DNA of 64,000 bases from the NCBI RefSeq assembly GCF_963675165.1, contig NC_087377.1, positions 12,572,632 through 12,636,631 on the forward strand, written 5' to 3'. This stretch comes from Halichondria panicea (taxonomy: Eukaryota > Porifera > Demospongiae > Suberitida > Halichondriidae). Positions 2,514-62,486 of this stretch are shown piece by piece. How positions within the stretch are numbered: position 1 is the first letter of the stretch; each line of letters opens with the position of its first letter. The translations under genes and the position numbers were made by a program. A model generated the notes under the pieces. That model was not told where the DNA came from and did not search any database. It worked only from the letters and a program-made list of their open reading frames with translations.

Positions 2514-4517
2514 ATGCAAGTACAGACAGTTCTTATTATCAGCATCCAGCTGTTTTCTTTTGCTGCAGGTAAGTTATAATACATATACATACATGCATGT
2601 TCACTGGAACACACATTTTTACAGCCACTCTGACATCCACCTCCACTGTGGCTTGTCCTGATGACACGGTCACCTTCACCTGCATTCTGCCTGGTAGCTT
2701 CATACAATGGAGGGCCATGCAAGGCCAAGTATCTTTGTTCAGCATATCGTTGGATACTAGCAACACTGATGAGACACGTGGTAATCCAGCATTCCGAGGT
2801 GTTCTTACTGACTCCAGTGGACCTCTCACTGCCACTCTCACCTCACTGTCTGAGGCCTCCATTGTAGAGGGTACTATGGTGGAGTGTGTGGGAGAGAACT
2901 CACGAGAGGGTCCTCTCACTATCACTGTGGCTGGTGAGTTCTTTGTTTGGAACATAACATTGTGGAACAAGTATCACTGATACACCCATAGATCCACCCT
3001 CTCCTCCACTCAACCCACGAGTATCCTCCACTTTAAATCAACCCAGTTCCTCTAATATCTCTCTGAATTGGGACCCTCCTTCCTCTACTGGTGGTGTGTC
3101 CGTCATGTATGTCCTCACCATCTCCCCAACACCTCTCTCCGAGTCACCAGTCACCGTGGAGACAACCTCTGCACAGATCACTGTCCTATATAACATTCCT
3201 TACAATGTAACCACCAGAGCTGTCAACTGTGCTGGAATGAGTCAAGAAGTCTAATTGTGGATCTTAGTAAGCCATTCCATGGTCGTAATTATTATAACAC
3301 ATGCATGTATATATTGTACTCTTTCTCAGTTTTGTGCCCCACACCGTCTACTGCTGCTGGTGTGACCATCACCAACACACCTCCTGTCACTATTGGTGGA
3401 TCCATGCTCACCTTCACTTGCGGTGGACCCAATGAAGTGATAACCTCAACCTGTGGCAGTAGTGGGTGGTCTCCTGACCCTGGGACCTTCGACTGTGGCA
3501 CCCCAGTTACAGGTATCATACATGGGAAACTAACTCTCTAAAAGGAATGTTGATCTCATGCATTAGATCGATCCCCCATCAGTCACCTGTGGCTCTCCAA
3601 CTGCACCATCCAGAGGCAGTGTGGACATCAGTGGAGGGACACCACCCTTCTCACTGGGTTCAGAGGTCACCTTCCACTGTAATGAGGGACTGTTCCTCCC
3701 TAATGTGAGGACCAGCACATGCACTGATGTGGGGGTAGGGGAGAGTGGGTGGAGAATCCCGGGAGCTTGGTGTGCAGGGAGAGGCCAGGTGAAATGTAGC
3801 TGTTTAGAAGCTTGATTTTTCTGTCAAAAAAGTTGTTTATGTGACTGCATGCATGTGTACAATTGTACTGCCTTTGTTCCACATGTCATTTCTTAGTATT
3901 CTGCAATGGCAGGTCATTAATGGGTGCTCATGTTGAGCTGATGAGATACAAAGATGTATACTCACAGTTATTTTCTGACCGTCCCTATATATATAGTCAA
4001 CTGCACTGTACCTGCTGAGCCGTGCAATGGTGCTATATTGGACTATGAGAGGTTGAATGAGACAGTGTTGGAGGGAACAGTGCTGACTTACCAGTGTGAC
4101 AATGGATTCTCACTGACTGGACCCAACACCATCACTTGCACTAATGCTGGAGTCTGGAGTACTAAGCCTGAGGCAATCGTGTGTGTACTTATGACTGAAG
4201 GTGATGAGCTTTGTAATATTGTATACTATCTACTATCTCATTTCACAGTTTCTACTATCGCTCCCTTGTTCTCCACTTCTGCAACTGTCGCTATCAGTGT
4301 GGTCATCACTTTAATTGTCACTCTAGTCATTGGATTCCTCACTGGACTCCTAGTGATGCATCTTTTCTCTCGTAAGAAGGCAGTGTACTTCCCGGCAACT
4401 GAAGGACAAGCTAACGCAGCGTCCACTACACCAGTTGGTCCTGTTTATGAGGAAATGTCACCCAAAGAGGACATTGAACTCAACACAAACCAGGCGTACG
4501 GACCATTAGGACTGTGA
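2514..4517 (+). pseudogene. Receptor copy B: Ig-FN3-CCP3-TM gene with two frame breaks
   Basis: Seven exons with GT-AG borders are readable: 2514-2568 (signal peptide MQVQTVLIISIQLFSFAA), 2625-2933 (Ig-like, VACPDDTVTFTC to MVECVGENS), 2992-3266 (FN3), 3330-3512 (CCP, TFTCGGPN), 3583-3788 (CCP), 3997-4200 (CCP, LTYQCDNGF) and 4249-4517 (TM plus tail with VYEEM and AYGPLGL). All intended junctions are phase 1. The FN3 exon is 275 nt where intact copies have 276; the missing base brings a TAA at 3252-3254. The second CCP exon lacks one G in a G run, so its last third is off frame. The 5' part of that exon also carries extra bases, bypassed by an acceptor at 3581-3582. Start choice: first ATG, giving a signal peptide matching other copies. 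Either a recent pseudogene or a gene hit by two sequence errors. Confidence 0.85.
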
Positions 4518-18241: not shown

Positions 18242-21200
18242 CAGAATTACCTATAGATGGGGCATCTGCTATACTGGTGCTACTCTTGCTGGAGGTGAAA
18301 GAGAAAAGGTGATTGACATTCAAAGGATCTGAAATTAATGTTTTTAATTGTCATATAGAGTGTGTGGCTCAAATCAAATACTAGTGAAGATTTAAGCTTC
18401 GATTGTATTGTCTTGGTTTTGTGTTATGATCCATATACCTTTTATTAACTAAGACACAATGACCCTAAAAAAGGTTGACTTGTTTTTCACTCACTACCTC
18501 TTTTAACACAGTACCATGCAGCCTCCAGCAGTGAACAAAGAAGGCTACAACAGAATCACCTATAATGTGGGATGTGGTGAGTATTGGTGTATTGTTAGCA
18601 TCAGTTTATTGCCACACCTCACAGAATCCTGCTTCACAGAACCCTTCTCCAGTTCACTAACCTATGATGAGGTTACCATCAACAGTGATAATGTGGTATA
18701 TAGTCATCAACATACACATATTCTTATGCTGCAATGGCGACTATTTTTGTACAACACAGAAAATAGTGGTCAACGAAGAGGAATACAGTGTAATGAACAC
18801 TGCATGGACAGGTATATATGTGAAACTCGTCTTTATACTCAATCATTACTGAAGCTCCACTCTTCGTACAGGGTGCTCAGAGGCTGCCTGCAGCTATGGC
18901 CAGCTTGGGAATGTGGTGAGTGTGTTTGTGCGCAGTCGTGAAAGTATTGCAGTCGTGAAAGTATTGCGACTAATATAGGTGTCTGTTTTGGTTGGCATTC
19001 TATACTGAACTACTATAATTACAAGTTAGAAAAAATTTGCATATTCAAGCTTTGAAGTGGCCACTGCTAATGAGGTGTCTATCCAACTAAGAAACCTGCT
19101 AGCAGGTCACTATCTGAGTTAGTGACCTGCTAGCAGGTTTCTAACTAGTACCCACAGGTTTCTAACTAAAACCACAGATGCATGAATATAATTAAACTCA
19201 GACAGATTACTATCATTTTTAAGGGTGCTGGAACACCTACGCCCACGTACGCCCACACACACGTTGCTAGGGAAAGCTAACTATGAAACTACCTGCAGGG
19301 GAGACATGGATCCTTCACAGGATTATGAAGCAACACTCTACTAGTGTGCATTCCAAAAATGGAGAGGAAAGGATGATGACAACAGATTTTACACTTGATT
19401 TTCATCATATAGCTAAAAGAAGTTCCGCTTAGGAAACCAGTAGAGCTATGGACTTGATTGTTTGTTTGCAGGTGCACTACACACAGCTCTTCAACATTAC
19501 GAAGAGCTTTTGTTGTAAAATCCCTTTGTTATCTATTTATGAGAATTTTTTGTCATGACACACCCTCTAGAGAAAAATCTAGACCGTATATGGACAAAGT
19601 CAGCCCGTAACTTTGTTCACCTTACCTAATTATAGCAGCATGCTAAATATAGACCAAGTCCTGTACGTAGATAGTCAGATCGAACACTTTTTATATCTGG
19701 CTCTAGCGTACGCATACGCTAGAGTATAAATTAATACGTAAGCCTGTAGACCACGCCCCAATTGCGTACATAGAGTGCAGAATTAGCGTTGAAGATCAAG
19801 AGCCATTATTTTGTTAGTAGCCTGAAGAGAAGAGATAGGCAACGCTGGGGCTACAGACAGCGCTGACAATTGGCTGGCTCATAGACTTCTGCCAGGGTTG
19901 GCTGCTGTTTTGATGGACTTTGAAGGTAAACTATGAACTAGCTTTGCTAGCTTGATACACAGGGCCTTGCTTTTCACTCCCTCCCCCTTCAGAGCTTCCA
20001 TGAAAGCCTGTGTGTAATACCACTCTTGGACCTCAGTGTCACCAGAGTGCTGTGCTCCAGGCCAAGTTGGACCAGTCTCTTTGTCTGGGCTGCAGTAATG
20101 CTTGGCTTCCCCGGGCATCAGATTGGTGGAACCTCCGCTTTTGTGAGGTCCACACAGCTCCATCTGCTTATTAGCAGACCGAATAGGGAGGTTGGGGAGG
20201 CAGCTGATCAGTGAATGGTGTGTCGTAACTGCCTCCATCGCCAGGACATCTGGAAATGAGCTTCTGTGAGTGTGATACATAAAATAAATAATAACACAGA
20301 TTGCCAACCTTCCAGACGAGTTCCTAGCGTGTTTGTAAGTATAGGTCCTCCATCCCAAGTTTTTTGCCAGAAAGGTGACTGTCCCCTTCATCTGGACAAT
20401 ACATGTGCATGTACAGTGAATAATTATGTAGTGGCACCGGGTCAGGTAGAATCCATCCATAGGGACCAACTTATTTTTGTCATCACCCCTGTTCACAATA
20501 TTTTTTTCGTACCTGACCACAGGACCATTCTGCTAACTTGGTGGCAAGGATCTCCAGCTTCTGAAGGATGCGATGCCATTGTGTGCTGGAACATGGTGGA
20601 AGACCCAACCAGCCACTCAACCGGACGTATCAACATGCAGGTGGCCATTGAGGAGAAAGGACAACACTGGATAGTGCCATGAACAGCTCGAATCGTGGAT
20701 AGTACACGTCTAAAGCACTGAAGAGAAACGTCTCCACTCGACACAAATGAAGACAGTGTGTATTAACATTAAAAGACAATCCAACCTGCTGTGTGACTAA
20801 TGCTAGTTGAGGAACTCGGACACTCGTGCTGATTGTACTGAGACTGGGGTCTATTGGCACACTTACGTTTCTCCCATCTACTACTGAAGGCACTCCTTTG
20901 CTACAAATCTGGCTCTGTATTTATTGGATTGTGTTATTTTGTTATTGATTTATTAGTTTGTGTAGCTACCTGATTTTCTTTTGCAGCTTGTAGTTAATTT
21001 AATTGAAGACATTCTCACAAAACCACTATGTTGTTACTTGTGGTTACTACTATACTAGCGCACGCATTGAAATTAAATACTGCGTGTGCAAGTCTCAGGA
21101 TCTGAACGTTGCATTTTTGTGGTTAAATTATGTCAATTTGTTACTATGTGCGGGCACCCTTAAGCACAAAATTAATTAGAAGACAAATTGATTGTTATAT

Positions 21201-22641
21201 TAGTTCCACCAGAAATAGAAATAGTAGGCAGCATGGTCTTCTGAGCAGTTTCGGTTTCTTTGCTTTTCTGAACAGGTTCAGCAGGCTCAGCAAAAGATCG
21301 CACATCATCACTTCGAAAGTCGTGCAAGGCAGGGTCATCAAATATCTTAACGTCTGGCCTTCCATTCTCTTTGAGGTGGCGCTGTAACCCACAAATTAGT
21401 TGGTATAAAGTGTTAGGAGGGTAAGGTTGTTTACATCTTTGTTTCCTTACTTCTAAAACGAATCTTGAAAGCCAAAAATTCATTTCTGCCACTGTTAGGT
21501 CATTGATAGAGGTGCTGAATGCGTTTTCTCCAGCTAGTAGCGCTTTATTTCTTGACATAGCCCAGTCAATCCATAACTTGACAGCCCATTGTGTACAACT
21601 CTTAGTTTTTTGCGGAATGCTGCTTTTCTTAATACTATCAATATATTTTTGTTTTTTTGGGGAAGCGTAATGAGAAACTGTAGCTGTAGTAGAGACAGCA
21701 GTGACAGCAGTGGTGGAAGTAGTACCAGTAGTGGAGTCAAAGCTTGCAGTTTGAGAATTGGTTATAGCAGCATCAATTAAATAGTCGACTTGAGTGAGCA
21801 AATCATCACTTATCGGAGGGAAATCCAATAGATTTTCTTCAAATTGGTTCAAATACTCGTCAGTTTGTTGCGTTGACAGGGCCTTGTAGGGATCGCCCAT
21901 TTGGGAGCTGGTTACTTGTATTCCACCAACGATACGGTCATCTGGTTCATCAAAAACTGACTCCCAATTAAGTCTGATGGGGTGCTCCGCTCTCCAACTA
22001 CAAAAGGTACATCCAGGACCAGTACAGTCGTGGTACATTGAGCTAAAATCTTTGGGCTCTCTAAATTTGAAAGACATCTCTTTTTACTAGCTTGAAACTC
22101 TCTTTTTTGCATGAAACTAATCTCATTAAACCTTAAAAATGCATTTTCTAAGCGAGATAGACCATGTGTAGTACGGCTTCTTAGCTGGATAGTAACCCTC
22201 GGGAGTGGTTAGTGGCTTCTGCAAGCCACTAATTGTCCTCGGCTGCGCCTCCGTCAATTAGAGGCTTGCCTCAGCCACTACACTCCCTCAGGTTTACTAT
22301 CCAGCTAAGAAACCTACTACACATGGTCTAACTAATACTTAATCATGTTTGGGTTAGTGTTATTGGATGTGTCATGTATGGTGAATTAGTGTACATTGTT
22401 TACCCAATATATTTTTCCTGCTTCACATTGTACAGATCAGGAGCTTGAAACCTGTATAGGTATATACACTCTGTAAGGGCTAATCTGTTGTTTCCTGACA
22501 CCCCAGGCTATTACAGTGGTGCCGGTAATCTATGTTTCCCTTACCTCCAGCCAGTCCCACACAAAAGGCAACACAACTGCCACAGTAGACCAACATCAGG
22601 TCACCTACGCTACTGTGGATATTGATACCGCCAGGAAATAA
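18242..22641 (+). CDS. TM-like exon and tyrosine-motif cytoplasmic tail exons (ITIM-like)
   Basis: Six exon-like segments have matching splice phases: about 18252-18309 (hydrophobic ASAILVLLLLEVKEK), 18512-18576 (EGYNRITYNVG), 18625-18695 (SSSLTYDEVTI), 18760-18811 (VVNEEEYSVMNT), 18872-18915 (ACSYGQLGNV) and 22507-22641 (PVIYVSL, QVTYATVDI, stop TAA 22639-22641). Phases run 2, 1, 0, 1, 0 across the junctions without conflict. LTYDEV, VIYVSL and VTYATV fit the ITIM consensus (I/V/L/S)xYxx(I/V/L); YSVM and YGQL are other YxxPhi motifs. ITIM tyrosines, when phosphorylated, recruit SH2 proteins such as SHP phosphatases. The hydrophobic stretch is short for a TM helix, so that exon may be incomplete. 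The 3.6-kb last intron carries a Crypton-like fragment. The tail likely belongs to the CCP receptor upstream (10354 or 17713 set). Confidence 0.55.
19020..19165. repeat. Hairpin repeat with gacctgctagcaggt arms
   Basis: Contains aacctgctagcaggtcacta and its inverse. The same sequence occurs inverted in the compound palindrome at 24383-24581, including the neighbouring phrase catattcaagctttgaag. It lies in the last intron of the tail exons. Confidence 0.7.
19879..20259 (-). CDS. Possible exon of unknown protein
   Basis: Open on the minus strand from an acceptor-like cactcacag (end at about 20259) to a stop at 19879. The end of the frame looks protein-like (EWYYTQAFMEALKGEG, KALCIKLAKLVHSLPS). 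It lies 0.9 kb downstream of, and on the same strand as, the Crypton-like fragment, so it may be part of that element. I do not recognise a family. Confidence 0.3.
   Translation of the reverse strand, partial: SFPDVLAMEAVTTHHSLISCLPNLPIRSANKQMELCGPHKSGGSTNLMPGEAKHYCSPDKETGPTWPGAQHSGDTEVQEWYYTQAFMEALKGEGVKSKALCIKLAKLVHSLPSKSIKTAANPGRSL
21172..22077 (-). mobile_element. Crypton-type tyrosine recombinase-like fragment (N-terminal part)
   Basis: A 301-residue open frame. Residues about 150-250 (TQWAVKLWIDWAMSRN, LTVAEMNFWLSRFVLEVRKQ, YPPNTLYQLICGLQRHLKEN) have the helical DNA-binding pattern of the N-terminal SAM-like domain of Crypton-derived proteins (the ZMYM2/QRICH1/KIAA1958 group). The catalytic half with R..HxxR..Y is not present in this frame, so this is a fragment or an exapted N-terminal domain. 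Before it stands a low-complexity Thr/Ser stretch (TTGTTSTTAVTAVSTTATV) and an N-terminus rich in Cys/Trp (CTGPGCTFCSWRAEH). The start at 22077 is the first ATG of the frame; upstream splicing is possible. Confidence 0.6.
22155..22332. repeat. About 178-bp palindromic element
   Basis: Left arm agatagaccatg...cttcttagctggatagtaac...agtggcttctgcaagc is answered by the inverse on the right (ccagctaagaaacctac, acacatggtcta). The loop ctcggctgcgcctccg is GC rich. Copies lie at 24311-24375 (half) and 24589-24756 (full). Confidence 0.85.
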
Positions 22642-44407: not shown

Positions 44408-47400
44408 ATGGATGCTACAAAAACTACTATTGTTTTGCTAATAGTAACCTTGTCAGTGACTCATTTTGTTGATTGTGGAGTCACCCTGATCACTCCTTCA
44501 ACACTGGCCAGTTTTCCCAAAGACTTTACTAACTGTAGTGGTACGTGCGTTGAACCATCATGCAGAGTTGTTCATGTTTCTCAACCACAGAATCTACATT
44601 TTGTTTTGGTTTACAAGTTGCATAATAATTGCTGCATCAATGTATACACACAGTCACAGCTTTTAGATGCGTAAAGGTTTCATAGTACCATAAAACCTTG
44701 ATTTAAAGCGAAGCTCCAATGATACGATATCTTAAGCTCAGGCAACTTTCTAACCTCTAAAAGTAGCAACAGGCACACCTTATTAAATGACGGAGCTACA
44801 TGCACATGATATATTTTGGCAGAAATTATCAATATATAGCTTGTTTTTGCGCTCTCAATCTAATGTGTATAATTATAATTGAATTTTGTTTGTTGCAGCT
44901 AAAGGAGATATTGGGAAGGTCCTGAATTTCTCATTGAATTCTTATGATTTTAGAAGAGGAGATACGATTGTTGGAAACCTGACATATTTCTTGTGTAAGT
45001 CTAATCACTCATGCACATGACCCTCTGCATATGGTCACATGTTAGCTATGTAAGGTTATATCAACACTATAGACAGTACAATATCAGAGAGACTTGACAT
45101 AATTAATAGCAAGTCAGAGTTTCAGTAAAATAATGAGCAATAAGGAATTTCCAAATTTTATATTTTGCTTTTTTTGTACACAGATCATGACATTTCTGGG
45201 AATGTAACACTCTCAGCATGGGGAAGGCATGGTGTTGTGCCTTACTTTGGTGATACTCTGAATTTATGTGATACCAAAGTGATCTCATGCCCACTGAAAG
45301 CCGGTGAAGGACATGCAGTCTTCAAGTATCCACTAGGCCAGTTTCAATCAATTGTAAGTGATTGTTAATTCAATTAACCAGCGATTTGCCTTTTTTAATC
45401 TATTAATAGTAAATCCAACTCAGGTTTCCTTCCTCCTACAGAAGTACTTAACTGGTTTCTTTCCTCCTATACTTCAATTGATTGTATAGCCTTCAGTATT
45501 ATACATAAATTTAATTATATGGTATGGATCTTCTTGTCTTTTTTAATCCAAAATAGTAAATCCAACTCAGGTTTCTTTCCTCCTACAGAAGTACTTAACT
45601 GGTTTCTTTCCTCCTATACTTCAATTGATTGTATAGCCTTTCAGTATTATACATAATTTAATTATACGTATGGATCTTCTTAATCCAAAATAGTAAATCC
45701 AACTCAGGTTTCCTTCAGCCAATAATACTATGGCTTCTTTCCTTCTATACTTCAATTGATTGTAGCCTTTCAGTATGGTAGCACATATACATGATATATA
45801 GTTATGGATCTTCTAGCTTATAGAGTTTCCTTCGCCAATAATTCTGATCAACAGTTTATATTAGGAAGAGTAATGTACGCAACAGTTGAACTTAAAACCA
45901 TAGTATAGGCCTATAGGCGTTGTCCAGCCTATACTGCGTGATTTTAAGTTAAATAAGGAAATTTGCTATGAATAACATTAGTGATTGCATGCATGCATGC
46001 ATGCATGCATGGTCTTTCCTATTATCTATAGCGCCATGCATCTGAAGTGGGTGCATGGTTGTGGTTACAATAGTGAGTATTATTGTGACATATGTCTGCC
46101 TCACAGTCTTCCTACTCTTTCGAACTCTTGATAGTGAGTATTATTGTGACATAAATGTCTGCCTCACAGTCTGCGGACTCTTTCGAACTCTTGATATAAT
46201 TATAGTGTGGGGGTGTAGGTACTATATAGGGGTTGCTATAGCATAATTTTGAGCATAATAATAATAGGCATACTTTTTTGGTGAGAATTATTCTGGCATA
46301 ATAGGTGCCTTTATAAAATATATAATAGGCATGCAGGTTTTAGAAGTACAGGTCAGTACGAATCTTAGTATAACATTTTTTAAGTCGAATGGTCGTGCTG
46401 GAAAAGTATATCTTCTTGGCATTCTGTATTATAGTGTTAATCATGTAGCCATTATTAATTTTATATGACATGGGGTCTATGTTGTACTTTGGAGGAATAA
46501 TGTGGGAATAATAGGCGATTTAAAAAGAATAATGAAAGCACCGCGGGTGCTGATACCTCGGTGGAGGTGCCAAAGCTACATAACATAAAACTACTAATAG
46601 CTAGCTTTTATACACACAATTATCATGATGATATAATTTGCTGCATGCAATCAACCGAATAGTGGGTAATGATCAACCATGATTGTTGTTAAAAACGATC
46701 GATGCCAAAAGTTCAAGTCTAATATTAATGGCTGCAAGTCAGCAGAGCCTTGCAGCTCTCTGCTCACTCTTGCAGCTACCAATAGCTAGCGTTCTAGTGC
46801 AGAGCTAACTACTAAGTAGAGTAGTAACACTCGGTGAACAAGTTTTGCTACGGACTCTTCTGAAAAGGCTGCAATGGCATTCCAAGTAAGCAAAACTAGG
46901 CATAACTCGAGAACGAAGCATTATTTTGCAAATCCACGAATTAAAATCCAAGTAAACATGACTAGAAGCCTATAGAAACTCTTACTTGCACTTGATTCAT
47001 CTTTGGGCAGCTGTAGCGGTCTACACACACACACAGACACACACACAGACACACAGACACACAGACACACAAACACACTACCGTATACCTCGCTTGCGCA
47101 TGCGCACCGAGGCATAATAAGCAGTTTGAAAAGGATAATATAGGCAGTTAACTTGAGCATAAAAAATAGCATAATAGGAATAACTCGAGCATAATCACAA
47201 AACCTTAGTAGGTACTTGTATACACACAGAAGCCCTAATTTACTGTTGAACCTATAATTATATGCTGTAAATGCAATACATGTATATAAAAATTATACGC
47301 TAATTGGTCCAACTATAATTATTGTGTCATAACTGCAGGGCTGGTATGAAGTTCATCTTGTTGTTTCTGATGAGAATAAGACAGAAGTAGCTTGCTTGGA

Positions 47401-52598: not shown

Positions 52599-55500
52599 AT
52601 GTCACTCCCAGTTTCAATTAAGCTAACACCTGATATCAAAGTATTCCCGATATCAATTCCTCTCAAGGCACTGGAGCAAGACACAGACTACACAGTGAAG
52701 CTTCCTATCCAACACTTTTTTTCCGCTCCGCTCCTTACTACACAGGCGTTGAAACTGAGGCTAGAGAAGAAAACTCTTCCACTTCTTTGGAGCATGCATC
52801 TGGGATGCCAAGATTCTTTGCTGTTGTGCAAAATGAGCCTGGCTGAAGGTATACATGTAGCACCAGTTGTACAGGTTTCTCTGCGCATTAATGAAGATCT
52901 CTCGTGGAGCGTTTCATTTGTTGGTCGAATCATTCCTCCGAATGCACCATCAATGTTGAGCCTCCCACCAACGATCAAAACCATCGATGACATGACTACC
53001 CTGCTGGATTTTTTCGCCAACTGTCAACTTTGCTGTGGTAGCAAGGAAGAGAAACTGTTGAATGTAATCAAACACAAGGACTCAACACTCCAAGGTAAGT
53101 GAATATTACATGTGCACTTGTGCAATATTTCATTACTTTCTTTCAGGTCAAAACTCTGCAACGATTGACACATCCTCGTGTCAGCCCACAGTGAGGCATA
53201 GAGACTGCCACTACCTCCTACCACCATCTTCTAGCTGTGTACGATGCCCAAAATGCACTCGCCATCGCTCTTCTCTTCTAATACAATCTAAGCGCCTGGA
53301 AAATTCTACTCCATCAAAAAAAACCAACTATCGATTCCTCTCCAAACAAGGACTTGTTGATCGAGTACAACTGGTTCACTCACAAGTGAAAGTGATGACA
53401 AAAAGAAATTTGAGACTGAAGAAGAAACTCGAAACTCAATTCGAAGAAAATGGTATGACTGTGAGTGAGGAGACACACAATGACCTCGCTACAGTTATTG
53501 AGAGGAATTCCGACACAGTTGACTCTCTGCCTCCCAACTCATTTCAACGCCTGTTCTGGGAGCAGCAATTAATAGCCATGTCCAAGCCAAGTTCGAAGGC
53601 CAAGGGTGTACGTTACCATCCTCTCATGATCAGATGGTGCTTGTATCTTCAGTATCATTCAAGTGGAGCGTATAATGTAAGTGTTCAGCATAATTCTATA
53701 TGCTGTCTTATTCTACTTGTTGATTTTCCTCTTTTACTTTTGCAGCTCTTGAGAGAGAGTGGGATTCTCAAACTCCCATCTAGCCGCACCCTGCGTGATT
53801 ATACTCATTTCGCTAGTGCCAAGCCAGGATTTTCAGTCGAGGTGGATAAGATGTTAATCGATGCTTCTAAGGTTGCTAGTTGTCCAGAGCGAGAAAAATA
53901 CATACTGCTTCTCCTGGACGAAATGCACGTCAAAGAAGATTTAATTTTCAACAAGCATTCGGGGGAGCTGATTGGATTTTCCAATCTTGGTGACATCAAC
54001 AACCATTTGGAAGTCTACTTACGGTCTCTTGACACTGACATTGAACAGTCACCTCCCCTTGCCAAATATTTATGGTGCGAGGGCTATTTACGAAGATGCA
54101 GTTTGCGTACGCACAGTTCCCGTGTTGCTCTCTGACGGGCGACAAACTGTATGCACCATTCTGGAATGCTCTTTCCCGGATTGAAAACTGTGGACTAAAG
54201 GTTTGTATACTTAAGTATAATTATGTAGTATTCATTTTATTATACTCAGGTGCTATGTGTCAAGAATAAGTAATATACTCAGGTGCTAGGTGTCAAGTAT
54301 AAGTATTAATTTTATTATACTCAGGTGCTAGGTGTCACAATGGACGGGTGTGCTGTCAACAGACGATTTATGAAGTTGCACCAATCCTCCGACTCATTTT
54401 TCTACAAAATCACGAACCCCTACACCTCAGAGAGTCGGCCAATTTTTTTCTTCTCAGATCCTCCTCACCTTATGAAAACCGCTAGAAATTGTCTATTCTC
54501 TACAAAAAGAGAAACTGTGGGTAAGTATACTTGCAGATATAGCTATACTGGCGTGTATTCAATGGCATACATGTGTTTATTATTAGAATGAGGGGAAAGA
54601 CATCACGAGGCAGCACGTTGTGACTCTTTATGAAGAGGACCAGAGGGGTGGTCTGGGTCTAAGAGTCCTACCCAAGCTTAAGTACGAGCACCTTCATTTG
54701 ACCTCTTTTTCCAAAATGCGAGTGGATTTAGCTGCACAGGTAAATTTTATGTGTATTTATTAATGTTTGTAAGTATGCAATCACTACAGGTGTTGAGTGA
54801 GTCCGTTTCAAAGGCACTTACTTTAAGGGGTGGAGAGGCAGCCGAAGGAACAGCCTGTTTCTTGCTACTCATGAATAAATTCTTTGATTGCACAAATGTG
54901 AAGAATTATTCAGCTGGTGCCAGGTCACCCAAACCATTTCAGCTACCCTACTTAAGTGCGGAGGGTGAGAGGCTAACGGTACTAGGCCTAACAATTACGC
55001 ACGGTTTTATCAGTAAATTTTATATCATATACCGTACCCTCGCGAAAATACGCCCACCCTTTTCTGCAAGAAGTCTAGGCTTATTAGGGGACTGGGCGTT
55101 TAATTAATCACAAACGGCAAGTTTTCATTCGAACATACGCCCACCCGCGGCCTCAAATCTAGGTCTACACTTTGCTCTATGCCAATTCTTTATTAATTTA
55201 TTGTATTTTCATTTTAATACATAGTATGAACATTTTATACAACAACAATGTTATAAACTAATGCATGAGTATGATTAAAGCATGACAAGAGAATGAACAT
55301 AAGGAGTGGACTCTGGCTCTATTCGTTGATGTTAGATGTAGCAGAAACTTCTCGAAGGATGGTAGGTCATACTCCTACAGAGCAGCTATCAGGTACTTTG
55401 TTTCAGAAAACCAAGGCAAGGTAACCTGCAAAATTAGCCTGTGTGATAACTTTCTTGGACTTGTGTTTTCCTTTCTCAGCATATAGGACTACTTGTTCCC

Positions 55501-56261: not shown

Positions 56262-56441
56262 TTTTTGTAATCACATACCCGCATTGCCAATTTCTATATA
56301 TCCATGCGATGCATGCAGCTGTTTTCCCAACATTAAATTTTCATGTTATAAGGGTTGACCATTATAATAATTATTGTACTATGGTTGCACCAAAGATCAA
56401 AGGCTTCAGTTGTAGTTTATACTACTTATACAACCTGTCTG

Positions 56442-56514
56442 ACCACAGCCATGGTATATGGCAGTTATACCCGTACCCTAGTGTATAACTGCCATATACC
56501 ATGGCTGTGGTCAA
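56442..56514. repeat. Perfect hairpin, about 30-bp arms
   Basis: tgaccacagccatggtatat + ggcagttatac is followed by a roughly 10-base loop (ccgtaccctag) and the exact inverse. It lies about 180 bases after the P-transposase stop codon, inside the P element and before Merlin. Confidence 0.9.
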
Positions 56515-57482
56515 ACTACATGTACAGCTAGAACTGAATACAGTATCCCACCTTTGCAATAAAATTGACACACTGTTTCAATTAAAACAATGACACACTA
56601 CTCAATTCAATCAATATTAGCAATATTAGAGTTAGAGAGAATTCAATACAAAACAGACTACTAATGATTTTAGTCAACATAAAAAGAGCCAAGTTCGAGC
56701 GATGAATAGTTCCAAAAAGGAGGCAAATTTCAAAGAACTCCGTGATCGTGAATCGAACGATACTGGTTTGTTTGTGTTGCTTTTTTTCAACTTTCAACAT
56801 TGGTTGTCACAACCTGCTTATTACATTGCTGCATGGGACCAGGAGCAGTAAGAAGGGTCCAGACTGCCAAGTGGGATCAGGTGTCATATACGGCACCTCG
56901 ATAATTAGATTCATAAACGTGTGGGCGGGACACAGGAAGCCATGTGCTTGCTTTGGACACAGGAAGCCATGTGCTTGCTGCAAGTTTACCGCGAAATTGA
57001 AGAAGTAGAATACAAACTATGTCTTTTTGGTGATAGGACCAGTGTTGTTTGGTGGAGTGGCAGGTATCATCCAGTATTTAAGACAGAGACACTTGCTGGC
57101 ATCTACCTGTGATTTGACTGATAAATAATTATAAATAATAAAAATCAATTATTAATTATAAGCAATGTAGCAGCAACTGATAAATAATAATAAAATAAGC
57201 AATGTAGCAGCAACTGTTTAATAAGCAATGTAGCAGCAACAAATTATATACGACCATTCACAATAGGTGTAACATCCCAATGTCCGAAAAACCACGACGT
57301 GATGTGTCTGATCAAGTTAGTTGGTGGTGCAGGCAATGCAAAACAAGAAAATCAATAAGACACGGAAGTTTTTTTTCCAAATCAAAACTAACTCTACAGA
57401 AGTGGCTGATGATAATTCACTTATGGGCGTGGGAGTTCCCTGTAACTAGTACAGACCAGCTGGCAGAAGTGGAGAAAAAAAC

Positions 57483-60400
57483 GGCTATACCTTGGTATAA
57501 AAAGTCACAATTCATGAATATAATTAAGCCTCTATAATGACATCAATATTATGGTTACATTCCATTCCACATAATTAAGTGTAACATATAATTATGTCAC
57601 TACTGTAACCAATGTAACATCAATCACCACTGTAACAACTGTAACACTTGTCACCACTGTAACAACTGTAACACTAGTCACCACTGTAACAACTGTAACA
57701 CTAGTCACCACTGTAACGACTGTAACATTTGTCACCACTGTAACAACTGTAACACTAGTCACAGCTATAACAACTGTAACACATGTCACCACTGTAACGA
57801 CTGTAACACTTGTCACAACTGTAACAACTGTAACGCTAGTCACCACTGTAACAACTGTAACACTTGTCACCACTGTAACACTAGTCACCACTGTAACAAT
57901 TGTAACACTTGTCACCACTGTAACAACTGTAACACTAGTCACCACTGTAACAACTGTAACGCTAGTCACCACTCTAACAACTGTAACACTAGTCACAACT
58001 GTAACAACTGTAACGCTAGTCACCACTGTAACAACTGTAACACTTGTCACCACTGTAACAACTGTAACACTAGTCACAACTGTAACAACTGTAACGCTAG
58101 TCACCACTGTAACAACTGTAACACTTGTCACCACTGTAACAACTGTAACACTTGTCACCACTGTAACAACTGTAACACTAGTCACCACTGTAACAACTGT
58201 AACGCTAGTCACCACTGTAACAACTGTAACACTTGTCACCACTGTAACACTAGTCACCACTGTAACAATTGTAACACTTGTCACCACTGTAACACTAGTC
58301 ACAGCTATAACAACTGTAACACATGTCACCACTGTAACGACTGTAACACTTGTCACAACTGTAACAACTGTAACACTAGTCACCACTGTAACAACTGTAA
58401 CGCTAGTCACCACTGTAACAACTGTAACACTTGTCACCACTGTAACAACTGTGACACTTGTCACCACTGTAACGACTGTAACACTTGTCACAACTGTAAC
58501 AACTGTAACGCTAGTCACCACTGTAACAACTGTAACACATGTCACCACTGTAACACTAGTCACCACTGTAACAATTGTAACACTTGTCACCACTGTAACA
58601 ACTGTAACACTAGTCACCACTGTAACAACTGTAACGCTAGTCACCACTCTAACAACTGTAACACTAGTCACAACTGTAACAACTGTAACGCTAGTCACCA
58701 CTGTAACAACTGTAACACTTGTCACCACTGTAACAACTGTAACACTAGTCACAGCTATAACAACTGTAACACATGTCACCACTGTAACGACTGTAACACT
58801 TGTCACAACTGTAACAACTGTAACGCTAGTCACCACTGTAACAACTGTAACACTTGTCACCACTGTAACACTAGTCACCACTGTAACAATTGTAACACTT
58901 GTCACCACTGTAACAACTGTAACACTAGTCACCACTGTAACAACTGTAACGCTAGTCACCACTCTAACAACTGTAACACTAGTCACAACTGTAACAACTG
59001 TAACGCTAGTCACCACTGTAACAACTGTAACACTTGTCACCACTGTAACAACTGTAACACTAGTCACAACTGTAACAACTGTAACGCTAGTCACCACTGT
59101 AACAACTGTAACACTTGTCACCACTGTAACAACTGTAACACTTGTCACCACTGTAACAACTGTAACACTAGTCACCACTGTAACAACTGTAACGCTAGTC
59201 ACCACTCTAACAACTGTAACACTAGTCACAACTGTAACAACTGTAACGCTAGTCACCACTCTAACAACTGTAACACTAGTCACAACTGTAACAACTGTAA
59301 CGCTAGTCACCACAACTGTAACACTTGTCACAACTGTAACAACTGTAACACTAGTCACAACTGTAACGACTGTAACACTTGTCACCACTATAACAACTGT
59401 AACAACTGTAACACTAGTCACAACTGTAACAACATGCCACCACTGTAACATCTGTAACGCTAGTCACAACTGTAACACTTGTCACCACTGTAACACATGC
59501 AACAACTGTAACACTAGTTCTTATAGTACTTATAGTCTATAGTGGTGCCAGACTAAAGTGTTACAGTAGTGACGTGTGTTGCATTGGTGACATGTGTTAC
59601 AGTTGTTACAGTGGTGACAGATGTTACAGTTGTTACAGTAGTGACATGTGTTGCATTGGTGACATGTGTTACAGTTGACAGTTGTTACATTTGTGACTAG
59701 TGTTACAAGTGCTACAGTTGTTACAGTTGTGACTGGTGTTACAGTGGTGGCTGGTGTTACAGTTGTTACAGTGGTGACGTGTGTTGCATTGGTGACTAGC
59801 GTTACAGTGGTGACATGTGTTGCATTGGTGACATGTGTTACAGTTGTTACAGTGGTGACAAGTGTTACAGTTGTTACAGTTGCGACTAGTGTTACAGTTG
59901 TTACAGTTGTTACAGTTGTTACAGTGCTGACAGATGTTACAGTTGTTACAGTGGTGACAGATGTTACAGTTGTTACAGTGGTGACATGTGTTGCATTGGT
60001 GACATGTGTTACAGTTGTTACAGTGGTGACTAATGTTACAGTTGTTACAGTGGTGACAAGTGTTACAGTTGTTACAGTTGTGACTAATGTTACAGTTGTT
60101 ACAGTGGTGACTAGCGTTACAGTGGTGACATGTGTTACAGTGGTGACAAGTGTTACAGTTGTTACAGTGGTGACTGGTGTTACAGTTGTTACAGTGGTGA
60201 CTGGTGTTACAGTTGTTACAGTGGTGACATGTGTTGCATTGGTGACATGTGTTACAGTTGTTACAGTGGTGACAAGTGCTACAGTTGTTACAGTTGTGAC
60301 TGGTGTTACAGTTGTTACAGTGGTGACTGGTGTTACAGTTGTTACAGTGGTGACATGTGTTGCATTGGTGACATGTGTTACAGTTGTTACAGTGTTGACA

Positions 60401-61118
60401 GATGTTACACTTGTTACAGTGGTGACTAGCGTTACAGTTGTTACAGTTGTGACTAGTGTTACAGTTGTTACAGTTGTGACTGGTGTTACAGTTGTTACAG
60501 TGGTGACAAGTGTTACAGTTGTGACTGGTGTTACAGTTGTTACAGTTGTGACTGGTGTTACAGTTGTTACAGTGGTGACAAGTGTTACAGTTGTGACTGG
60601 TGTTGCAGTTGTTACAGTGGTGACAAGTGTTACAGTTGTTACAGTGGTGACTGGTGTTACAGTTGTTACAGTGGTGACAAGTGTTACAGTTGTTACAGTG
60701 GTGACTGGTGTTACAGTTGTTACAGTGGTGACATGTGTTACAGTTGTTACAGTGCTGACAGACGTTACAGTTGTTACAGTGGTGACTAGCGTTACAGTGG
60801 TGACAAGTGTTACAGTTGTTACAGTTGTTACAATGTTGACAGATGTTACAGTTGTTACAGTGGTGACATGTGTTACAGTTGTTACAGTTGTTACAGTGGT
60901 GACTAGCGTTACAGTTGTTACAATGTTGACAGATGTTACAGTTGTTACAGTGATGACATGTGTTACAGTTGTTACAGTAGTGACATAATTACATGTTACA
61001 CTCCATGCGTACGTACACTTATTGGAATGGAATGTAACCATAATATTGATGCCTATACCCTCATTATAGAGGTTTAATTATATTCATGAATTGTGACTTT
61101 TTATACCAAGGTATAGCC
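57483..61118. mobile_element. 3636-bp foldback element made of inverted minisatellite arms
   Basis: Both ends carry a unique inverted repeat of roughly 100 bp (ggctataccttggtataaaa + agtcacaattcatgaatata; inverse at 61025-61118). Inside, a minisatellite with a 27-bp unit (gtaacactagtcaccactgt + aacaact) runs from about 57600 to 59520, then switches to its reverse complement from about 59560 to 60990. The short centre (about 59520-59560) is unique. The exact 8-bp duplication AAAAAAAC (57475-57482 and 61119-61126) proves insertion. Foldback (FB) elements of Drosophila have the same plan: long inverted arms made of short tandem repeats. It has no gene of its own; GG...CC tips and an 8-bp duplication fit mobilisation by Merlin transposase. 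Confidence 0.9.
57600..60990. repeat. 27-bp minisatellite in two inverted arrays
   Basis: Roughly 70 units in the left array and 50 in the right; units vary at a few positions (ctagt/cttgt; cac/caa; gct/act) and some are 18 bp. Being a multiple of three with no stops, the array is open in more than one frame on both strands, giving long Thr-Val-Ser-rich translations that are not genes. The left array also shows higher-order blocks of several hundred bases repeated with the same variant order. Confidence 0.95.
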
Positions 61119-62486
61119 AAAAAAACTGCGATCGATGTATACCAGTGGTTGAGGGAAGTTTGTTCCGCCAAGCTTGTCAACACACCGTGTATTCTGGGTG
61201 GGCCTGGTATAACAGTGCAGATCGATGAATCTCTATTCCGACACAAACCAAAGGTGAATTAATATATAAATTATACATTAGTGTACGTTTGTGCTGTACA
61301 CATACAAACAGCATCACAGAGGAAGAGCTACAACGCAAGATATATGGGTGTTTGGTTTGGTAGATACATCGGTAACACCAGCTCTAGGATACATGGAGAT
61401 TGTGAATGACCGAAGAGCTGTCACTCTATTGCCTATCATCCAGGCTCATGTAGCTCCTGGAACAACCATTCACTCAGACCAGTGGGCAGCGTACAACAAC
61501 ATGCTTTCTCTTCCCAATGTCAGCAGTTATTCTGCTGTAAACCACTCACTGCATTTTGTCGACCCGGTAACTGGAACACATGCCCAGAATGTGGAATCCT
61601 ACTGGAACCGTGTCAAAACAAAATTCAAGAGGATGAAAGGATGTGACAGTCATCAACTTCCAAGCTATTTGGATGAATTTATGTGGAGGGAAAGATTTAC
61701 CACTAGCCACAAGGATGCCTTCAACTCCATTCTTGGGGAAATAGCACAACAATACCCTGTGTGAGAGTGAGAATGGCAGTTCTTACATCTCTACCATTAT
61801 TCAACATTATTTAACCAGGATTTTAGTCAGCCATTGGTATTATTTAACACTATATAGTCAACCATTGGTATTATTATTTTACTGACTCACTCAGTCACTG
61901 TTTTTGGTTATGTAGCCAGATCTTTTCTAACTCTTTGCTGTGTACATTGATTTTGTGTTGCTAAGGACTTGCACATGGCTTCCTGTGTCTCGCCCACTCC
62001 CGCCCACACGTTTATGAATCTAATTAGCGAGGTGCCGTATATGACACCTGATCCGCCAAGTGTTTCTCAGACTAAAGAGACTGCACTGCACTGGGCCAGT
62101 ACAGTAGGCTTGTGGAATGATATTTTGGGGTACATTTGCACTCTTTGTAGACAAGTAGCACCAATGTACTTTCTTGAAGTGCCTTCTATAAAGATGCAGA
62201 AACACAGCCTTCACAATTGCTTGCTTGAATCATAGACGCTTGCTTGAATCAGCCATCGCTTTTTAAAAAAATAGCAAATTCATTGCATAGCTATAGCAAC
62301 AGTGACGTCAAACAGTAGTTATAAGCATATTCATTGAAGAAGCATGACAGGAAGTAGCTAAACATAGTAGTACAGTTCTAAACATAGTACAAGCCAGTTA
62401 AACTATGTTTAACTATAACTTATAGCCAGTATACATGTACAGGATATAATTATTATACTTACTATAATTATACTAAAATTATACGT

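Follow-up and report, generated by a model that had tools for sequence, protein, structure and literature searches.

A mobile foldback family with 8-bp target-site duplications and a probable 40-kb composite in the sponge Halichondria panicea

A 64,000-nucleotide stretch of the genome of the demosponge Halichondria panicea (assembly GCF_963675165.1, contig NC_087377.1, positions 12,572,632–12,636,631 of the forward strand; hereafter "the window") carried a foldback element, whose long inverted arms consist of tandem repeats, inserted in a Merlin transposon. An initial annotation of the window had proposed an animal mobile element of foldback type, outside the Drosophila lineage, and this was right. 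The foldback architecture of the element and the mobility of its family were firmly established by analysis of the window and by searches of the genome (131 Mb in 39 contigs). The family very probably consists of young, non-autonomous cut-and-paste DNA transposons, and its most interesting features are a probable composite and a 20-bp remnant.

The insert occupied positions 57483–61118 (3,636 bp), and sequence reading with flank comparison placed an exact 8-bp target-site duplication (TSD), AAAAAAAC, at 57475–57482 and 61119–61126. Its tips were inverted (GGCTATACC), the first bases being GGCTATACCTTGGTATAAAAAGTCAC and the end the reverse complement of GGCTATACCTTGGTATAAAAAGTCAC; the tip sequence of the family was GGCTATACCTTGGTATA. 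The left terminal domain (57483–57600, plus strand) began with this tip, and its 118 bp were the same in 10 of the 13 young copies described below. Within it, direct reading revealed a near-palindrome TATACCTTGGTATA (57486–57499), which contributes the direct repeat, GGTATA, that figures in the remnant. The left arm (57596–59518, plus strand) was an array of a 27-bp minisatellite unit, GTCACCACTGTAACAACTGTAACACTA, in which Tandem Repeats Finder (TRF) counted 73.1 copies. A short unique centre (59519–59557) separated it from the right arm (59558–60986, minus strand), where the unit was arrayed in inverted orientation, with variants private to that arm; both arms were characterized by TRF and unit comparison, and TRF placed 52.9 inverted copies at 59596–60985. 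The right terminal domain (60987–61118, minus strand) had the same tip and matched the left end at 89% across 99 bp. Compared ungapped over 1,308 nt, the arms were 79% complementary. The exact duplication, the inverted ends of about 100 bp and the inverted 27-bp arrays described in the initial annotation were thus borne out. An 8-bp flank match would arise at random with P ~2 × 10−5 at 40% GC, and an exact duplication was found in 11 of 14 full-length copies, indicating that the duplication was not due to chance.

The host Merlin element, including the foldback insert, spanned 56874–62054 (plus strand), had tips GGATCAGGTGTCATATACGG and was flanked by a TSD of its own, GCCAAGTG, at 56866–56873 and 62055–62062. 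The catalytic part of its transposase was identified in Pfam at 61291–61764 (plus strand; DDE_Tnp_IS1595, E 7e-18). Joining the flanks of the insert with one duplication gave ...EVEKKTAIDVYQW... in frame, and the joined site matched three uninterrupted copies of the host Merlin (L060, L061 and L062) at 119, 119 and 118 of 120 bases, respectively. Since three insert-free copies agreed so closely with the joined site, the insertion was clean, and the restoration of the Merlin reading frame on removal of the insert and one duplication, as first reported, was confirmed.

When the genome was searched with a 26-mer of the tip, allowing up to three mismatches, 31 matches were obtained, as against none with the reversed control. 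These comprised 14 inverted pairs, with 1.1–4.7 kb between members, and three single sites. The further copies foreseen by the initial annotation were therefore present: 13 more full copies, 10 of them with an 8-bp duplication of their own, whose arms varied in unit number and order. Altogether, 11 of the 14 full-length copies had their own exact duplication, which was 8 bp long in all 11, and every tip (28 of 28) began with GG. Two copies, L036 and L037, had no duplication of their own; one duplication was common to their outer sides. All 13 young copies agreed exactly over the initial 50 bp of the left end; counts on young copies excluded the old copy L044. Some copies were nearly identical: L038 and L033 differed by one mismatch in 3,548 aligned positions (four gaps), L036 and L037 by three in 4,664 (two gaps), and L032 and L033 by eight in 3,808 (one gap); the family has therefore been active recently. 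Its mobility was evident from the many copies with duplications and from the empty site in three Merlin copies. Two observations fit a single young family less well: L044 had no duplication, and the right end was less uniform than the left, its commonest 132-bp form occurring in five of the 13 young copies.

Palindromic arrays are hard to assemble, and the inverted arrays could in principle be an assembly artefact. This is extremely improbable: the 14 copies lay in different contexts, had ordered unit variants in common, and in 11 cases were flanked by 8-bp duplications. The occurrence of the tip as inverted pairs at 14 separate places makes an isolated assembly artefact unlikely. We propose that a transposase supplied by another element would recognize the ~100-bp terminal domains and insert a copy with an 8-bp duplication.

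The distribution of copies was tested post hoc, once the pattern had been seen, with the composite described below counted as one event. Ten of 12 young insertion events lay on contigs C4, C5 and C6, which make up 17.5% of the genome (P 1.3 × 10−6 unadjusted; ~0.001 once corrected for the choice of three contigs out of a presumed 18 large ones). Three pairs of insertions were within 100 kb of each other, as against 0.32 expected when positions were shuffled within contigs (P 0.005). A tendency to hop locally would account for the concentration on C4–C6 as well as for the close pairs, and would supply the neighbours that composites need.

The two copies lacking their own duplications lay on C4 (7,813,905 bases) in the same orientation, L037 at 2577920–2582610 and L036 at 2612953–2617670, with 30.3 kb between them. 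On the minus strand the order was CATAAATT-L036-CAATCTTG, 30.3 kb, ATTATAGT-L037-CATAAATT; that is, CATAAATT was common to the outer sides of both copies, and the inner flanks were CAATCTTG and ATTATAGT. With CATAAATT as its outer duplication, the 39.75-kb block (C4:2577920–2617670) therefore behaves as a single insertion. Such an arrangement is characteristic of composite transposons, and the block is probably one of these, well preserved. Three open reading frames (ORFs) of the carried DNA were compared with Pfam, giving a tyrosine phosphatase, a sushi domain and no match; the loci L053–L055 sit within the composite, between L037 and L036.

Both outer flanks matched units belonging to a single tandem family, located to each side of the block. 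Joined with one duplication, they aligned across the join to C4:2625421–2626795 (1,477-bp alignment, 79% identity); an uninterrupted landing site would read AATTTATG. The carried DNA, in turn, was foreign to this site. Searches with its two edges listed 54 and 68 matches, the first scoring the best 40 of 1,238 candidates, and the statements that follow hold among the matches listed. The edges matched many places in C4:1.93–2.33 Mb, an array 250–650 kb from the composite, and all matches there longer than 100 bp were in the opposite orientation; the best, at 91%, was C4:2330457–2331348. None fell within C4 2.34–2.58 Mb, a few short ones lay near C4:43–100 kb, and many others belonged to a dispersed repeat. 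The edge adjoining L036 ended inside this dispersed repeat, which was cut at the element and continued in two other copies; the missing part was absent from the 1-kb outer flanks (one 14-base match only). The carried DNA thus came with a match to another C4 array and with a split dispersed repeat. The repeat itself (C4:2612795–2612951; L066 and L067) was ~200 bp long, was 92–99% identical at at least 30 sites, and contained an internal inverted 18-bp repeat, looking like a miniature inverted-repeat transposable element.

The arrangement is most simply explained by transposition rather than recombination. Where neighbouring copies point the same way, one could contribute its outer left end and its partner the outer right end, and a transposase pairing these outer ends would move the DNA between them, here 30.3 kb of phosphatase and sushi DNA into another gene family on C4. 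Several findings tell against this account. The landing-site paralog was diverged, and the 1,477-bp alignment had only 118 bp to the left of the join; near the join only 240 of 363 columns were identical, with a gap close to the junction, and for this reason the empty-site support for the composite was moderate. A genome-wide search for the pattern of a donor scar gave 29 matches, none on C4 (control 5 + 5), the pattern consisting of 7 + 8 exact bases, so that a donor site repaired imprecisely, or a donor allele since lost, would likewise escape it. The block could alternatively have formed by homologous recombination, for example if a circle of one copy plus 30 kb had integrated into a lone copy at CATAAATT. 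Such an event would leave the same flank pattern, and is in keeping with the missing donor scar and with the close similarity of L036 and L037 (3 differences in 4,664 aligned positions). It is nevertheless rather unlikely: it needs three regional copies and two events, against two copies and a single event for composite transposition, and copies on other contigs were about equally alike (L032 and L033, 8 in 3,808; L038 and L033, 1 in 3,548).

A second footprint of the family was found at C1:15035769–15035788 (L059), where a perfect 20-bp palindrome, GGCTATACCTTGGTATAGCC, had the 8-bp sequence CAATTCTG on both sides. Among the matches listed genome-wide this was the only exact site of GGCTATACCTTGGTATAGCC; one site on C8 had two mismatches. 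The remnant consisted of two tips joined at GGTATA, which is a direct repeat in each end owing to the near-palindromic form of the tip itself. The best reading is that a copy once stood here and was removed, either by a deletion spanning short repeats at the palindrome base or by end joining after excision. Short direct repeats at the palindrome base may thus be a route of copy loss, with a 20-bp scar left behind. The remnant is reminiscent of the near-precise excision of bacterial transposons, a phrase not met among the open-licence papers listed (a weak absence).

For comparison of the arms, units were taken as words delimited by GTCAC. Unit variants were ordered and common to different copies, with blocks duplicated or lost. 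Among the 13 young copies, left arms contained 4–95 units and right arms 27–86, the lowest counts being those of one 1.1-kb copy (L034). Thirty-two variants had 10 or more occurrences in young copies, of which eight were confined to left arms, nine to right arms, and 15 occurred in both. As 17 of the 32 were private to one arm, the arms evolve largely as separate arrays. A coding role for the arrays was considered and rejected: there were long ORFs in several frames, but these fit the unit lengths, 1,489 of 1,620 words being multiples of 9 long, and do not point to a gene. The minisatellite arms, in which no gene was recognized, may grow and shrink separately through slippage or unequal exchange, and by analogy with Galileo they may provide multiple binding sites for the transposase.

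The initial annotation had attributed movement of the element to a Merlin transposase. Merlin elements have 5'-GG tips, 8- or 9-bp duplications and terminal inverted repeats (TIRs) of 24–462 bp, and several families contain internal tandem repeats (PMC8101967, consulted in part). The foldback family showed both the GG tip and a duplication of Merlin length. The genome gave 24 matches to DDE_Tnp_IS1595, and 10 loci were examined (the window, L048, L049, L050 and L060–L065, with L069 completing L065); tips could be read in six. A first group, GGATCAGGTG, comprised the window, L060, L061 (one end only) and L062; a second, GGTTAGGCTG, was L064 with the duplication ATTAAGTC; and a third, GGATCATGAC, was L065/L069, in which no duplication was found. 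No TIR was resolved at L048, L049 or L050, and at L063 a 53-bp inverted repeat adjacent to the transposase contained GGTTAGGC, resembling the L064 tip, its outer limit not being reached. The foldback tips had GG alone in common with the six Merlin tips read. GG tips and 8-bp duplications fit the attribution to Merlin, but the Merlin tips read share only GG, and transposases of Mutator-like elements (MULEs) are present. A Merlin-type mover may well be the correct choice, though we hold it tentatively; a mover outside the Merlin, MULE and P types is improbable.

Tips of the family were also searched for with a 20-mer at up to three mismatches, which gave 43 matches (reversed control 2 + 2): 28 were the ends of the 14 copies, three were old fragments, one was the remnant and 11 were others. 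Against the proposal of an outside transposase acting on these tips, no autonomous element with foldback tips was found at the 32 of 43 matches covered, that is, all except three on C1, one on C5 and seven on C14. The tip-like 20-mer was repeated, at three mismatches, at seven sites in C14:537836–1572386 and three in C1:5441212–5492599; these may be fortuitous, a locally repeated sequence or the ends of a related element. Six old fragments (L043, L045, L046, L047, L051 and L052) had no TIR/TSD pair of the foldback family. At L046 one inverted second tip-like match lay ~1.5 kb off (4 mismatches in 17), and this pair had no 8-bp flank match and no long ORF between; ~1.1 such second matches were expected by chance in the six loci.

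The family could quite possibly be moved by a MULE transposase instead, as most described foldbacks are. The genome contained 31 MULE-domain matches, several of them in long ORFs. MULE duplications are about 8–11 bp. All 11 duplications of the sponge family were exactly 8 bp, as against 9 bp in Tm1 and 8–10 bp in Tetris, a weak argument against a MULE mover. Most foldbacks seem to be members of Mutator (PMC4079207, in part). Membership of the P superfamily, like that of the foldback-shaped Galileo, is a doubtful alternative. An ORF with a P/TNP-like RNase H domain (Pfam) was present in the window at 53110–54135, ~3.3 kb upstream of the foldback, and no TIR/TSD pair was found around it. P-type tips begin with CA, not GG; duplications in the P superfamily are 7 or 8 bp, and those of the sponge family were 8 bp. 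Galileo shows that P elements are able to resemble foldbacks (PMC3573991 and PMC3688188, in part), and its duplications are 7 bp (PMC2775673, in part). A wider reading can be offered only tentatively: a Merlin-mobilized foldback family, the first of its superfamily, may be young in this sponge, moving blocks of host gene arrays as natural 40-kb composites, with the tip palindrome as a built-in route to near-precise loss.

Drosophila FB elements have long inverted arms of tandem repeats and 9-bp duplications. Sea urchin TU elements have tandem outer domains and 8-bp duplications. The sponge family resembles FB in its tandem-repeat inverted arms and differs in its host, its 8-bp duplications and a 40-kb composite readable with its duplication; the likeness to FB and that to TU are by description, not by sequence. 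In the FB-bounded Ising TE of Drosophila, the DNA between two copies moves as a unit, as has been known for decades (PMC6431247, in part) and as is proposed here for the C4 block. Foldbacks have been recorded in rye, Arabidopsis, sea urchin and Chironomus, the sea urchin elements being, like ours, foldbacks of a marine animal (PMC4079207, in part), and Tm1 has been described in nematodes (PMC3169594, in part). Galileo is likewise foldback-like with long, internally repetitive TIRs, whose tandem repeats hold extra binding sites for the THAP domain of the transposase (PMC3688188, in part); unlike Galileo, with its 7-bp duplications, the sponge family had no coding copy that we found. Tetris and Tm1 resemble the sponge family in having a domain outside the tandem repeats, and Tetris, too, has no known autonomous copy. 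They differ in that the unit of Tetris is ~220 bp and its duplications 8–10 bp (PMC4079207, in part), and that Tm1 has a unit of ~14 bp, 9-bp duplications and some members encoding a putative transposase (PMC3169594, in part). Merlin shares GG tips and 8-bp duplications (PMC8101967, in part), but the window element contained no DDE_Tnp_IS1595 gene, and its tips shared GG alone with those of the host Merlins. Among the open-licence papers listed we met no foldback in sponges (Porifera), no Merlin transposon with a foldback or minisatellite, and no sea urchin TU elements, each a weak absence. The elements described here are a new sponge foldback family with clear footprints; foldbacks outside Drosophila and FB-bounded composites were already known.

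Other features of the window included a hairpin with 30-bp exact arms (18-bp core) at 56441–56512, just upstream of the Merlin element, which looks like a small inverted-repeat element, and a 147-bp tandem repeat of 2.8 copies at 45386–45776 (TRF). Pfam identified a reverse transcriptase (1116–1973), a sushi domain (3954–4517) and a QRICH1 domain (21172–22077) in window ORFs. Elsewhere, L057 and L056 belonged to a tandem protein family starting like QQCGTVGRVGSTR and having a Thr-rich stretch; a search with a gene beside the C4 copies gave 50 homologues, the two with names being uncharacterized Halichondria panicea proteins.

The ordered unit variants mean that growth of the arrays is reconstructable arm by arm. 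The family is young enough (L038 and L033 had one mismatch in 3,548 positions) for empty sites to be expected in samples from populations. An event like those bounded by FB is readable in a sponge at base level, from its outer duplication, inner leftovers, split repeat and landing-site paralog; if this reading is true, foldbacks may contribute to the scattering and inversion of gene-array fragments.

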